Positions 5,825 to 47,321 of a stretch of 64,000 nucleotides of DNA are shown piece after piece. The stretch spans positions 329,921 to 393,920 of the forward strand of contig NZ_RJJW01000001.1 in NCBI RefSeq assembly GCF_003781945.1. Direction: 5' to 3'. The stretch comes from Halorubrum sp. CSM-61. GTDB taxonomy: Archaea > Halobacteriota > Halobacteria > Halobacteriales > Haloferacaceae. The position numbers and the translations under genes were made by a program. Within the stretch, counting starts at the first letter, position 1. Each line of letters starts with the position of its first letter. The notes beneath the pieces are model-generated. The model worked only from the letters and a program-made list of their open reading frames with translations, did not search any database and had not been told where the DNA came from.

Positions 5825-5840
5825 TTTAGGCCTCCCTAAA
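5825..5840. promoter_or_regulatory. Iron operator TTTAGG-N4-CCTAAA, start-proximal
   Basis: Perfect palindrome (TTTAGGCCTCCCTAAA), 4 bp upstream of the ATG at 5820, the same offset as at 1389. It lies between the start codon and a TATA-like ATTTAATG stretch near 5842-5850. Confidence 0.85.
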
Positions 5841-5860
5841 GCATTAAATCGCTTTCGAAT

Positions 5861-5876
5861 CTTAGGGGAACCTAAA
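5861..5876. promoter_or_regulatory. Iron operator, distal, one mismatch (CTTAGG-N4-CCTAAA)
   Basis: Sixteen-bp palindrome with a single outer mismatch, 36 bp from the proximal site. It repeats the spacing seen at 1389/1425. Confidence 0.8.
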
Positions 5877-6001: not shown

Positions 6002-6017
6002 TTTAGGCCGTACGAAA
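6002..6017 (+). promoter_or_regulatory. Degenerate iron-box half site upstream of dpsA
   Basis: TTTAGG is intact, but the second half reads ACGAAA rather than CCTAAA. It lies about 22 bp upstream of the dpsA TATA box (TTATAAG, about 6039-6045), a place where a bound regulator would activate rather than block. Whether it functions is inference. Confidence 0.35.
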
Positions 6018-6069: not shown

Positions 6070-6615
6070 ATGAGCACGCAGAAGGAGACCCGACAGCGCG
6101 CCGGTACCGTCGAAGAGAACGCCCTCAGGCTCGATTCGGAGAAGGCGGAGCAGATCATCGAGGCGCTGAACGTCGACCTCGCGGACGCGTACGTCCTCTA
6201 CCACCAGCTCCACAAACACCACTGGAACGTCGAGGGCGCCGAGTTCCTCGACGTTCACGTGTTCCTCCAAGAGGTGTACGAGGACGTCGAGGCGGCCGCC
6301 GACGAGCTCGCCGAACGGCTGCAGGCGCTCGGCGGCGTGCCGCACGCCGGCATGACGACCCTCTCGGAGAACGCCACCGTCGAGCCGGAAGACGAGGACG
6401 TCTACGACATCCGCACGTCGCTCGAGAACGACCTGGAGATGATGGGCGACATCATCGAGAGCTACCGGCAGCACATCGAGCTCGCGGAGGGGCTCGGCGA
6501 CTACGCGACCGCGGAGATGCTCCGCGAGCAGCTGGAGGGCATCGAGGAGCACGCGCACCACATCGAACATTACCTCGAGGACGACACGCTCGTCGTCGAA
6601 TCCGCGACGAACTGA
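6070..6615 (+). CDS. dpsA: DNA-protecting ferritin-like protein DpsA
   Basis: 181 aa, the usual haloarchaeal DpsA length. The ferroxidase ligands at the dimer interface are visible: HKHHWNVEG near residues 46-54 and DVHVFLQEVYEDVE further on. The later histidine-rich EEHAHHIEHYLED fits DpsA. The protein forms a dodecameric shell that oxidises and stores iron and limits hydroxyl-radical damage. It lies between iron-boxed uptake genes and the DtxR regulator, which fits joint iron homeostasis. The upstream half-box (6002-6017) may link it to the same regulator. Confidence 0.95.
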   Translation: MSTQKETRQRAGTVEENALRLDSEKAEQIIEALNVDLADAYVLYHQLHKHHWNVEGAEFLDVHVFLQEVYEDVEAAADELAERLQALGGVPHAGMTTLSENATVEPEDEDVYDIRTSLENDLEMMGDIIESYRQHIELAEGLGDYATAEMLREQLEGIEEHAHHIEHYLEDDTLVVESATN

Positions 6616-6634: not shown

Positions 6635-6958
6635 CTAGCGAACGTCCGGCGCGGTCTGGTCGGTCCGACCCGGCAGCGCCACTTCGATCTCTAACTCCGG
6701 TTCGCCGACGCCCTCGTAGTCAATTTCGAGTTTCACGGGTTCGCCGAACGCGAACGGGAGCGCCCACTCCTCCGTCTCGATCCGGAGGTCGTCGCCGTCG
6801 CGGAGCCCCTCGCCGAGCGCGATCAGGAACTCGCCGGCCTCGCTGGCGTCGACGCGGTACTCCCGCTCGAAGTTCCGACCGGCGATCACCGTCCGGTCGT
6901 CGTCGGTCGACGCCGACTCGTCAGAGTGAGATTCGTCCGAAGGGGATTCGTCCGTCAT
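6635..6958 (-). CDS. Amphi-Trp domain protein
   Basis: 107 aa. A Ser/Asp/Glu-rich N-terminal tail precedes an amphi-Trp type domain (FEREYRVDASEAGEFLIALGEGL, then EEWALPFAFGEPVKLEIDYEG). No signal peptide or membrane helix is seen. It starts one base after the stop codon of the 55-aa CxxC gene (6960-7127), so the two form an operon behind the iron operator at 7136-7151. The function of this domain in haloarchaea is unknown to me. Confidence 0.82.
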   Translation of the reverse strand: MTDESPSDESHSDESASTDDDRTVIAGRNFEREYRVDASEAGEFLIALGEGLRDGDDLRIETEEWALPFAFGEPVKLEIDYEGVGEPELEIEVALPGRTDQTAPDVR

Positions 6959-6959
6959 C

Positions 6960-7127
6960 TCACCGAGTCACGTCGACGACGTGGTCGCTCGCGATCCACC
7001 CGTCCGTGTTCTCGGACTCCATGAACACGGATCGGCCGGGACACCCCTCACAGACGGTGACGGAGGGAGTCTGTTCGGATTCCGATTCGCGACGAGAGTC
7101 GATACGAGACCGAGCGCCTGCGGACAT
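6960..7127 (-). CDS. Small CxxC protein, first gene of an iron-boxed operon
   Basis: 55 codons plus stop, starting with ATG at 7127 and ending at the TGA complementing 6960-6962. The N-terminal half is Arg/Ser-rich. The second half reads VTVCEGCPGRSVFMES and ends ENTDGWIASDHVVDVTR, with one CxxC pair and no other cysteines. It is supported by its coupling to the next gene and by the iron operator 9 bp upstream of its start. The single CxxC could bind one metal as a dimer. I do not know a function. Confidence 0.78.
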   Translation of the reverse strand: MSAGARSRIDSRRESESEQTPSVTVCEGCPGRSVFMESENTDGWIASDHVVDVTR

Positions 7128-7135
7128 TGCGAGTC

Positions 7136-7151
7136 TTTAGGCAAACCTAAA
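7136..7151. promoter_or_regulatory. Iron operator TTTAGG-N4-CCTAAA before the CxxC/amphi-Trp operon
   Basis: Perfect palindrome (TTTAGGCAAACCTAAA) ending 9 bp from the ATG at 7127. A TATA-like T-rich run follows at about 7148-7160 on the minus strand. Confidence 0.83.
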
Positions 7152-7229
7152 ACAAAAAGGATGCGGTCGACGGCGACGGTTGCGGAGGTCGCGGCCGGCG
7201 GCGTCGACTCCCACCGTCGCGGTCCCGGG

Positions 7230-7670
7230 TCACTCCGCGTGCGTCGGCGGGACGCCGAGGTCGTCGGGCGAGGCGTCGGTGTCGACGTCGAGGTCTTCGA
7301 ACAGCAGGCGGGCCAGCCGTTCGGCGACCGCGGGACTGACCAGTCCGGCCATCTCCATCGCCTCGCGCTCGTACGCGTCGAGGTCGAGCACGTCGCGGAA
7401 GAACCACGACAGCGCGACGTACGTCTCGTGGAGATCCCCCGCGCGCGCTCGGCCGGCCTCGGTGAGCGTCGCCCCCTCGTACGGCTCGCGATCGACGAGC
7501 CCGTCGGACGCGAGCCGCTGGAGCATCTCCGTCGTCGCCGCCGGGGAGCGGTCGAGCATCCCGGCGATCCGACCGGGCGAGATCGGCGGCGACGCCCGGT
7601 GCTCCGCGATGTACAGCGCGAGGAGGTACCGGGCCGTCCGCGTGGACCCCGGTTCGCCGACGTGCGCCAT
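7230..7670 (-). CDS. DtxR-family metal-dependent transcriptional regulator
   Basis: 146 aa, the length of DtxR/MntR-type repressors without the SH3 domain. An N-terminal winged helix (TARYLLALYIAE, then PGRIAGMLDRSPAATTEMLQRLASDGLVDREPYEGATLTEAG) precedes the metal-binding/dimerisation domain (HETYVALSWFFRDVLDLDAYEREAMEMAGLVSPAVAERLARLL). It should sense Fe(II) or Mn(II). A perfect operator sits 4 bp from its own ATG (7674-7689), so it is probably autoregulated and is the likeliest reader of all TTTAGG-N4-CCTAAA sites here. Confidence 0.9.
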   Translation of the reverse strand: MAHVGEPGSTRTARYLLALYIAEHRASPPISPGRIAGMLDRSPAATTEMLQRLASDGLVDREPYEGATLTEAGRARAGDLHETYVALSWFFRDVLDLDAYEREAMEMAGLVSPAVAERLARLLFEDLDVDTDASPDDLGVPPTHAE

Positions 7671-7673
7671 GGT

Positions 7674-7689
7674 TTTAGGCTACCCTAAA
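7674..7689. promoter_or_regulatory. Iron operator at the DtxR-family gene (autoregulation)
   Basis: Perfect palindrome (TTTAGGCTACCCTAAA), 4 bp upstream of the ATG at 7670. A TATA-like TTTATATTTTT lies just beyond at about 7688-7698. The offset is the same as at the two binding-protein genes. Confidence 0.85.
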
Positions 7690-46084: not shown

Positions 46085-46100
46085 TTTAGGTTTTCCTAAA
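46085..46100. promoter_or_regulatory. Iron operator TTTAGG-N4-CCTAAA before the lone ABC ATPase
   Basis: Perfect palindrome (TTTAGGTTTTCCTAAA), 51 bp upstream of the ATG at 46152 and 38 kb from the other sites. It overlaps the best TATA-like stretch, so binding should block transcription. The resulting leader of about 40 nt is longer than in the other iron-boxed genes. Confidence 0.8.
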
Positions 46101-46151: not shown

Positions 46152-47321
46152 ATGTCTCACACGCAATCAGTCGAACGGACGGAGTCGGCCACGGACGCGA
46201 GCGAGTCGTCCGCGGACGCGACGGGATCGCGCGCCGACGCGACCGAGTCGCCCGCCGCGGCGTCGGCGGACCCCGTGTTGTCGCTGTCTGGCGTGACGAA
46301 GGAGTTCGGTCCGGAGACCGCCGTCGACGGCGTCTCTCTCGACGTCAAGCCGGGAGAGCTGCTCACCTTCCTCGGCCCGTCCGGCTGCGGGAAGACGACG
46401 ACGCTGCGGACCATCGCGGGGTTAGAGGAGCCGACGGAGGGGCAGATCGCCCTCGGCGGCGAGACCGTCGCCGGCGACGGCGCGTTCGTGCCGCCCGAGC
46501 GGCGCGACGTCGGGATCGTCTTCCAGAACTTCGCGCTGTTCCCCCACCTCACCGTCCGAGAGAACATCGCGTTCGGGCTCGGCGACGACGCGGACGCGAG
46601 CGCGGAGCGCGTCGACGAGATGCTCGACCTCGTCGACCTGCCCGAACACGGCGAGAAGACGCCCGACCAGCTCTCGGGCGGGCAGAAGCAGCGCGTCGCG
46701 CTCGCGCGCTCGCTGGCGCCGGAACCCGAGGTGCTCCTCCTCGACGAGCCGTTCTCGAACCTCGACGTGCGGCTCCGCGTCGAGATGCGCGAGGAGGTCC
46801 GCCAGATCCTGAAGGAGGCCGGCGTCACCGCCGTCTCCGTCACCCACGACCAGGAGGAGGCGCTCTCCATCTCCGACCGCGTCGCCGTGATGAACGACGG
46901 GAAGATCGAGCAGGTCGGCCGCCCCGAGTCGGTGTTCGAGCGCCCCGAGTCGAAGTTCGTCGCCTCCTTCCTCGGGCGGGCGTCGTTCCTCGAAGGCCAC
47001 CTCCGCGACGGGAAGGTCGAGACGGGAATCGGCCGGTTCGACGCCGTCACGCTGGAGGGGTACGACACCGTCTACGACGGCGCGCCCGTCGACGTGTTGG
47101 TTCGCCCCGACGACCTCCGGGCGAGCCCCGCGAGCGCCGACCTGGCCGACGGGACCATCGTCTCGCGGCAGTACGTGGGCCCCTCGTTCATCTACCGGGT
47201 CGAGCTCGACTCCGGCGAGGTCGTCCACTGCCTCCACAACCACGTCGAGGAGTTCGATCTCGACGAACCGGTGAGCCTTGAGCTCACCGCCGCGCATCCG
47301 CTGGCCTGGTACCCGCGGTAG
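46152..47321 (+). CDS. Iron-regulated ABC transporter ATP-binding protein (FbpC/PotA-like)
   Basis: 389 aa. A 40-residue Ser/Asp/Ala tail is followed by the ATPase domain with Walker A (GPSGCGKTT), VGIVFQNFALFPHLTV Q-loop, signature LSGGQKQR, Walker B VLLLDEPF and H-loop SVTHDQEEA. A C-terminal TOBE region follows (VDVLVRPDDLRASPAS, ISRQYVGPSFIYRVEL). This is the ferric-iron/polyamine/sulfate importer class, not the siderophore class of 1479-2378. The iron operator upstream favours ferric iron. No permease or binding protein adjoins it. Confidence 0.88.
   Translation: MSHTQSVERTESATDASESSADATGSRADATESPAAASADPVLSLSGVTKEFGPETAVDGVSLDVKPGELLTFLGPSGCGKTTTLRTIAGLEEPTEGQIALGGETVAGDGAFVPPERRDVGIVFQNFALFPHLTVRENIAFGLGDDADASAERVDEMLDLVDLPEHGEKTPDQLSGGQKQRVALARSLAPEPEVLLLDEPFSNLDVRLRVEMREEVRQILKEAGVTAVSVTHDQEEALSISDRVAVMNDGKIEQVGRPESVFERPESKFVASFLGRASFLEGHLRDGKVETGIGRFDAVTLEGYDTVYDGAPVDVLVRPDDLRASPASADLADGTIVSRQYVGPSFIYRVELDSGEVVHCLHNHVEEFDLDEPVSLELTAAHPLAWYPR

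Follow-up and report, generated by a model that had tools for sequence, protein, structure and literature searches.

Dedicated partners of ferritins are best known for bacterioferritin. To our knowledge, how iron is recovered from mini-ferritins of the Dps type is a largely open question. In the bacterioferritin system, as set out in parts of one account (PMC7762939), the small ferredoxin Bfd is encoded next to bfr and expressed differently from it, and without Bfd iron stays trapped in the bacterioferritin core. Iron regulons under DtxR-type regulators are described for haloarchaea, with Idr, SirR and TroR named as the regulators in passages of PMC11349517. Here we describe a small haloarchaeal gene that resembles the gene for Bfd in lying beside a ferritin gene, dpsA, and in an expression that, judging by the boxes at the promoters, would differ from that of the ferritin gene. 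Bfd is, however, a [2Fe-2S] ferredoxin, whereas the small family has no conserved cysteine pattern or cofactor site, and Bfd acts on bacterioferritin, whereas the putative partner of the small protein is a Dps-type mini-ferritin. With the Idr, SirR and TroR regulons the locus shares an operator-like box, an adjacent DtxR-type gene and boxed transporter genes nearby. We propose that the small gene encodes an iron-starvation-induced microprotein dedicated to DpsA, which would shift DpsA to iron release or stop its storage of iron, a reading whose chances we judge to be evenly balanced.

In the window (the whole stretch of DNA analysed, 64,000 nucleotides from Halorubrum sp. CSM-61), the small ORF lies on the reverse strand (6960-7127) and encodes 55 amino acids, with cysteines at positions 26 and 29; its sequence places it in the microprotein family described below. 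A perfect iron box, TTAGGTTTGCCTAA (TTAGG-N4-CCTAA; 7137-7150, reverse strand), ends 9 nt before the ATG and is preceded by a TATA-like element recognized by eye, CCTTTTTG (7153-7160, reverse strand), the T-run of which starts 31 nt before the ATG. A single base (6959) separates the TGA of the small ORF (6962-6960) from the ATG (6958) of the second gene of this local operon, an ORF of 107 amino acids with an amphi-Trp domain (6635-6958, reverse strand; 46.5 bits against TIGR04354, cut-off 31; 17.1 bits against Pfam PF20068, below the cut-off of 27). Convergent with the small gene is dpsA (6070-6615, forward strand), the product of which is assigned to the ferritin-like DpsA proteins with 292.3 bits against NF041388 (cut-off 170). 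On the other side lies a DtxR-type regulator gene (7230-7670, reverse strand), which scores 42.1 bits for the DNA-binding domain PF01325 (cut-off 26) and 21 bits for the C-terminal domain PF02742 (below the cut-off of 27), and which has an iron box of its own upstream (7675-7688, reverse strand). The original prediction, made for the interval 6635-7151 that spans both ORFs and the box and excludes dpsA, had drawn this layout correctly: the perfect operator 9 bp before the ATG, the stop codon one base from the amphi-Trp start, and the position between dpsA and the DtxR-type gene.

The small protein and DpsA are a class-wide unit. DpsA (NF041388) was found in 136 of 145 Halobacteria genomes, and a genome-wide search with an alignment of 58 members of the small family (threshold E<=1e-7) found the family in exactly the same 136 of 145, with a profile that derives from dpsA-adjacent members and to which many of the counted genomes contributed. 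Both genes are missing in the same nine genomes (G117, G045, G059, G060, G062, G063, G044, G054 and G132). A second sample, 26 genomes from the family of G059, divides into 17 with both genes, 9 with neither and none mixed. The union of the samples, 158 genomes, thus holds 146 with both, 12 with neither and no discordant case, where the count of genomes with neither includes one that is 72% complete (G316) and one with 6% contamination (G317). The weak match in G044, which lacks DpsA, has an E-value of 3e-5, a box score of just 7/12 and a sequence that reads like DUF7331 proper (see below), and was therefore counted as absent at E<=1e-7. Since joint absence is also seen inside genera that otherwise have both genes (g28, g44, g20 and g45), DpsA and the small gene were likely lost together several times independently. 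Superoxide dismutase was present in all 21 genomes of a subset, the first nine double-negative ones among them, and at least this oxygen-defence gene was therefore not lost with the pair; an explanation of the joint losses as mere loss of oxygen defence was rejected on this one gene. Distances between DpsA proteins and between small proteins correlate (Mantel r 0.59, permutation maximum 0.16), as shared descent alone would predict. In a sample of the phylum, the small family occurred in 7 of 60 genomes and in 0 of 50 outside the order to which the window belongs.

The small gene is also, for the most part, physically linked to dpsA. Its closest named relative is in Halorubrum halophilum (98% identity), and a single-protein search with the window ORF found relatives in 53 of 59 related genomes (E<=0.01). 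We assembled 80 dpsA regions of ~6.5 kb each from 67 genomes of 54 genera, hand-picked among the matches listed (roughly one genome for each genus, with additional copies and, in some cases, a second genome), which together with the window locus (L010) makes 81. In 59 of these, a profile search revealed a relative of the small ORF; a match in L129 (E 0.0046) was dropped from this linked set. Fifty-four of the 59 linked genes are convergent with dpsA and five are on the same strand, and the gap between the two genes never exceeds 1156 bp and stays within 500 bp in 54 of the 59. Counted by genome, in 53 of 67 at least one fetched dpsA has a small gene no more than 3 kb away, and in the other 14 it lies farther off or elsewhere in the genome. 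Seven genomes (G018, G085, G100, G102, G150, G152 and G081) carry a separate small gene at both dpsA copies examined, eight have one fetched dpsA copy without a small gene, and in G066, one of those 14, the small gene follows ~2 kb past a row of three dpsA genes. In L086, L090, L122 and L204, too, dpsA-like genes stand three in a row; the last three of these loci have the small gene facing the row's end. The short ORF is thereby conserved well beyond Halorubrum, one of the points on which the original prediction had been staked in advance.

Individual replicons illustrate the arrangement. In Halobellus limi (NZ_CP031312.1), the order is a metal-dependent regulator, the small gene (annotated as hypothetical), the amphi-Trp gene and dpsA; this species belongs to the Haloferacaceae, the same family as the laboratory model Haloferax volcanii. 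Halarchaeum sp. CBA1220 (NZ_CP054708.1) has three dpsA genes in a row, faced by the small gene, and for Halorussus salilacus (NZ_CP099994.1) the stretch around the small gene has no listed dpsA. The small gene of each of these three is preceded by a perfect box, 9 nt from its ATG. In Haladaptatus salinisoli (NZ_CP085333.1), a relative lies near an iron ABC transporter and not near dpsA, with no listed gene at that place and no ATG placed. The expectation that automatic annotation would skip so short an ORF was borne out in part: among four annotated plasmid records, out of five matches, the ORF has no listed gene in one, whose gene table is incomplete, and is entered as a 'hypothetical protein' in three.

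An iron box scoring at least 10/12 stands upstream of 59 of the 59 linked small genes. Such a box lies near the ATG in 55 of them and a box lies 30-39 nt before the ATG in 33; both positions are filled in 29 and neither in none. The distance from box to ATG is 9 nt in seven of eight Halorubrum loci and 8 nt in the remaining one (L009), and many relatives beside dpsA, in Halorubrum and in other families, have the box 8-9 nt before the ATG. In loci L002-L039, 38 of 38 have a box of at least 10/12 upstream; L029, L031, L035, L036 and L038 have no perfect box, but an 11/12 box 34-35 nt upstream of the ATG. Copies without dpsA in the fetched stretch (20 hand-picked among the matches listed plus L176, L177 and L179, from which L201 was removed, as it adjoins a second dpsA) have an iron box in 22 of 22 cases, at 7-9 nt from the ATG in 14 and solely at 34-35 nt in 8; a plasmid copy in which no ATG was found (L202) was left out of the box count. 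Start codons of the small genes were picked partly by their box, and the background was therefore repeated with the same freedom of start codon, which gave a box in 6 of 491 ORFs; simpler backgrounds gave 6 of 380 ORFs (first ATG) and 4 of 2950 shuffles. Conservation of the operator, a check suggested along with the original prediction, is thus seen in linked and unlinked copies alike.

By eye, aligned upstream regions of many relatives have the same promoter layout: an upstream box, a TATA-like run, the main box, 7-14 nt and the ATG. The upstream box has the form TTAGG-N4-CCAAAA and, again by eye, overlaps the apparent BRE. The window promoter has the main box only, lying between the TATA-like element and the ATG. 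The start of its T-run, 31 nt before the ATG, suggests that the transcript may be leaderless. A regulator bound at the box of the small gene would block the promoter, a layout that would be expected for metal-dependent repression. The small gene thus carries the marks of an iron-box regulon member, namely a palindromic operator, a repressor-like position and conservation across species. A role in iron metabolism, which had been implied from control and position, is well founded, because the short ORF and its iron box recur together across Halobacteria.

The dpsA gene itself seems to be controlled differently. No box site scoring at least 9 was found within 60 nt of 87 dpsA starts. A degenerate box (TTTAGG-N4-ACGAAA and similar), however, was found in 33 of 81 cases with its end 50-58 nt upstream of the dpsA start codon. 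Shuffles gave a mean of 0.02, and ten further intervals of equal width along these sequences gave 0-3. In the analysed Halorubrum stretch it is TTTAGGCCGTACGAAA (10/12; 6002-6017, forward strand), which ends 52 nt before the dpsA ATG and is possibly an activator site; the position of the degenerate box in general would suit an activator. MntR is a regulator that we take to be related to DtxR. According to the abstract of PMC11275975, MntR has a dual role and, from sites lying upstream, can act as an activator as well. In Halobacterium, according to a passage of PMC3600143, DpsA is lower under iron deficiency. A single system may repress the small gene and activate dpsA.

The linked small proteins are 46-62 amino acids long (n=59). 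In an alignment of 58 rows, in which the window protein represents L010 and from which L159 is omitted, E37 and W44 are invariant (M1 is so by construction), and V34, F35, N40, I45, D48 and V51 are conserved in at least 90%. The cysteines are not conserved in this way. Position 26 holds H in 28 of 58 rows and C in 21, and 12 rows have C at position 29; the two cysteines occur together in 9, and 22 of the 58 relatives have no cysteine at all; C26 and C29 are found in the window protein and close Halorubrum. The idea of a CxxC protein with possible metal content, part of the original prediction, therefore fails as a common feature, and a CxxC metal or redox site was rejected as the core of the family on these counts.

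An AlphaFold model of the small protein (mean pLDDT 70, pTM 0.48) has three short strands and a low-confidence N-terminus. A fold search with this model found nothing at E<=0.001 (best E 2.2), a PDB sequence search gave 0 matches, and an NCBIfam search with the 58 members also gave 0 matches, there being no NCBIfam model for the family. In Pfam, no family other than DUF7331 (PF24018) matched. The window protein scores 24.2 bits against DUF7331, below the curated cut-off of 27, and appears from its sequence to be a distant relative only; 48 of the 58 members match DUF7331 weakly (E up to 0.01, best 3.6e-7). Proteins of DUF7331, which is haloarchaeal and of unknown function, are similar in length to the small family and share by eye the core VVF..E.N..AW. 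Because the two are related, yet all 292 Halobacteria genomes searched, DpsA-less ones included, have PF24018 matches, the small family may be described as the DpsA-tracking branch of a haloarchaeal small-protein family. No dpsA was found within 1.5 kb of the 30 best-matching PF24018 loci. In six of seven DUF7331 loci that were read (L040, L045, L049, L055, L066 and L067), a neighbour resembles DNA polymerase B by eye. Halorubrum also has a second subtype of the small protein away from dpsA (L176, L177 and L179), which has retained the upstream box alone, at 34 nt from the ATG, and by eye has a conserved context beside an old-yellow-enzyme-like gene. We found no literature on DUF7331 and, in the titles, abstract starts and passages searched, no description of the small gene; the regulon lists of Leyn and Rodionov 2015 and Martinez Pastor et al. 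2024 might include it, and the passages of PMC2880973 on VNG2442H give no link to it. With the present results, a small protein family without an NCBIfam model gains a likely context.

In the scheme that we favour, a metal-loaded DtxR-type regulator would, when iron is plentiful, occupy the one or two boxes that flank or overlap the TATA element and keep the small gene off. When iron is short, the repressor would leave the boxes and the microprotein would be made, bind DpsA, and shift it from storing iron to returning it, or halt further storage. The identity of the regulator, the iron response, the physical binding to DpsA and the outcome for iron mobilisation are the parts of this scheme that we infer. 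A partnership of the small protein with DpsA is nevertheless well supported by comparative evidence, and the small protein is probably an overlooked helper of DpsA in iron shortage, since it has an iron switch at its promoter, is present with DpsA and is missing where DpsA is missing. Iron release, for its part, would follow from analogy with Bfd, to which the small protein may be comparable in role but is unrelated. The [2Fe-2S] cysteines that are conserved in the Bfd family are not conserved here (both cysteines in 9/58, none in 22/58). With no conserved redox or metal site, Bfd-like reductive release cannot be the small protein's own chemistry, and the chemistry of any release would therefore have to be supplied in another way, by recruitment of a reductase, opening of a pore or destabilisation of the cage. 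More tentatively, haloarchaea may possess a dedicated, cofactor-free protein switch for a Dps mini-ferritin. When iron is plentiful, repression of the microprotein and activation of dpsA would both come from a single metal-sensing system; in starvation, the induced microprotein would dock on DpsA and either open a path by which iron can leave or recruit one. With agreement between the small gene and DpsA in 158 of 158 genomes and a box in every copy with a placeable start, the gene is a concrete and genetically tractable candidate.

Co-occurrence and linkage give no direction to the effect on DpsA, be it release, a block of storage or turnover. The small protein might thus act on DpsA otherwise, by blocking its ferroxidase activity or its DNA binding or by tagging it for degradation, with iron freed only indirectly. 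The same co-occurrence, linkage and boxes speak for it, and invariant E37 and W44 together with the low-confidence N-terminal stretch of the predicted model could suit a docking peptide. Only the Bfd analogy sets this possibility, which we regard as real if rather doubtful, apart from the release that we prefer. Some observations go against a dedicated partner: in 14 of 67 genomes, none of the fetched dpsA genes has a small gene within 3 kb; a further 8 genomes carry a second dpsA copy without one; and 4 of the 22 unlinked copies have amphi-Trp, not dpsA, as their neighbour. The small protein could instead be a general iron-sparing regulator, a member of the iron regulon with RNA, DNA or a metabolic enzyme as target and no contact with DpsA. 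All 22 copies without a nearby dpsA keep the box, four of them beside amphi-Trp, and the fold can serve other partners, as related DUF7331 proteins are present in all 292 genomes. An independent regulator, however, would not be expected to be absent (E<=1e-7) from every one of the 12 DpsA-less genomes among 158, and we consider this unlikely.

Convergent transcription could mean that dpsA is silenced by an antisense extension of the iron-boxed transcript, with the protein in a secondary part. The orientation of 54 of the 59 linked genes would allow this, but five are on the same strand, the 22 boxed copies without a nearby dpsA retain the coding sequence, and E37, W44, N40 and D48 are invariant or nearly so. 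Antisense transcription as the sole function was rejected on the same-strand and the boxed unlinked copies, and it is in any form very improbable. We give equally little credence to a CxxC metal or redox protein that works with the amphi-Trp protein. Such a protein would fit the C26/C29 pair of the window and close Halorubrum, as well as an amphi-Trp neighbour that recurs in a subset (8/59 linked and 4/22 unlinked small genes), but with both cysteines in 9 of 58 relatives, none in 22 and amphi-Trp mostly absent, it is largely refuted for the family.

The operon of the small gene with amphi-Trp, predicted as a pair, does recur, in a subset of the family. An amphi-Trp ORF is found in 8 of the 59 dpsA regions that hold the small gene, and it adjoins 4 of the 22 unlinked copies. 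The pairing is not a conserved unit, as BLAST found amphi-Trp in 10 of 81 dpsA regions, against tracking of DpsA by the small gene in 158 of 158 genomes. Since most small genes have no amphi-Trp neighbour, a class-wide unit of small protein and amphi-Trp was rejected. In the four unlinked cases (L191, L197, L198 and L200), the two genes stand side by side with no dpsA within 1.5 kb, and the pair can move together. In L096 (2619-2962), the neighbour of dpsA is an amphi-Trp ORF that is itself preceded by an iron box, 9 nt from its ATG; no small gene is present at this place. Given its place beside 8/59 linked and 4/22 unlinked copies and its own box in L096, amphi-Trp probably belongs to the same response in a secondary position. 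We found no literature on amphi-Trp.

Perfect iron boxes number 12 in the whole 3.7-Mb Halorubrum genome, against 1 for the reversed control pattern, and are therefore not due to chance; 7 of the 12 fall inside the window. Two pairs of boxes, at 1390-1439 and 5826-5875, each with a spacing of 36 bp, precede two substrate-binding-protein-like genes on the reverse strand (1385-162 and 5820-4546), both apparently part of an iron or siderophore ABC transporter cluster. The pair upstream of 5820-4546 consists of boxes at 5826-5839 and, 36 bp away, 5862-5875, neither of them assigned to a strand. The same 36-bp spacing was found again in Halorubrum loci L002-L008. A lone perfect box (46086-46099) lies 52 nt before an ABC transporter ATPase ORF (46152-47321, forward strand), which by eye looks like a subunit of a ferric-type importer. 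Outside the window, five further perfect boxes within 10 kb (G000 C23:233585-243009) probably mark a second iron-uptake cluster.
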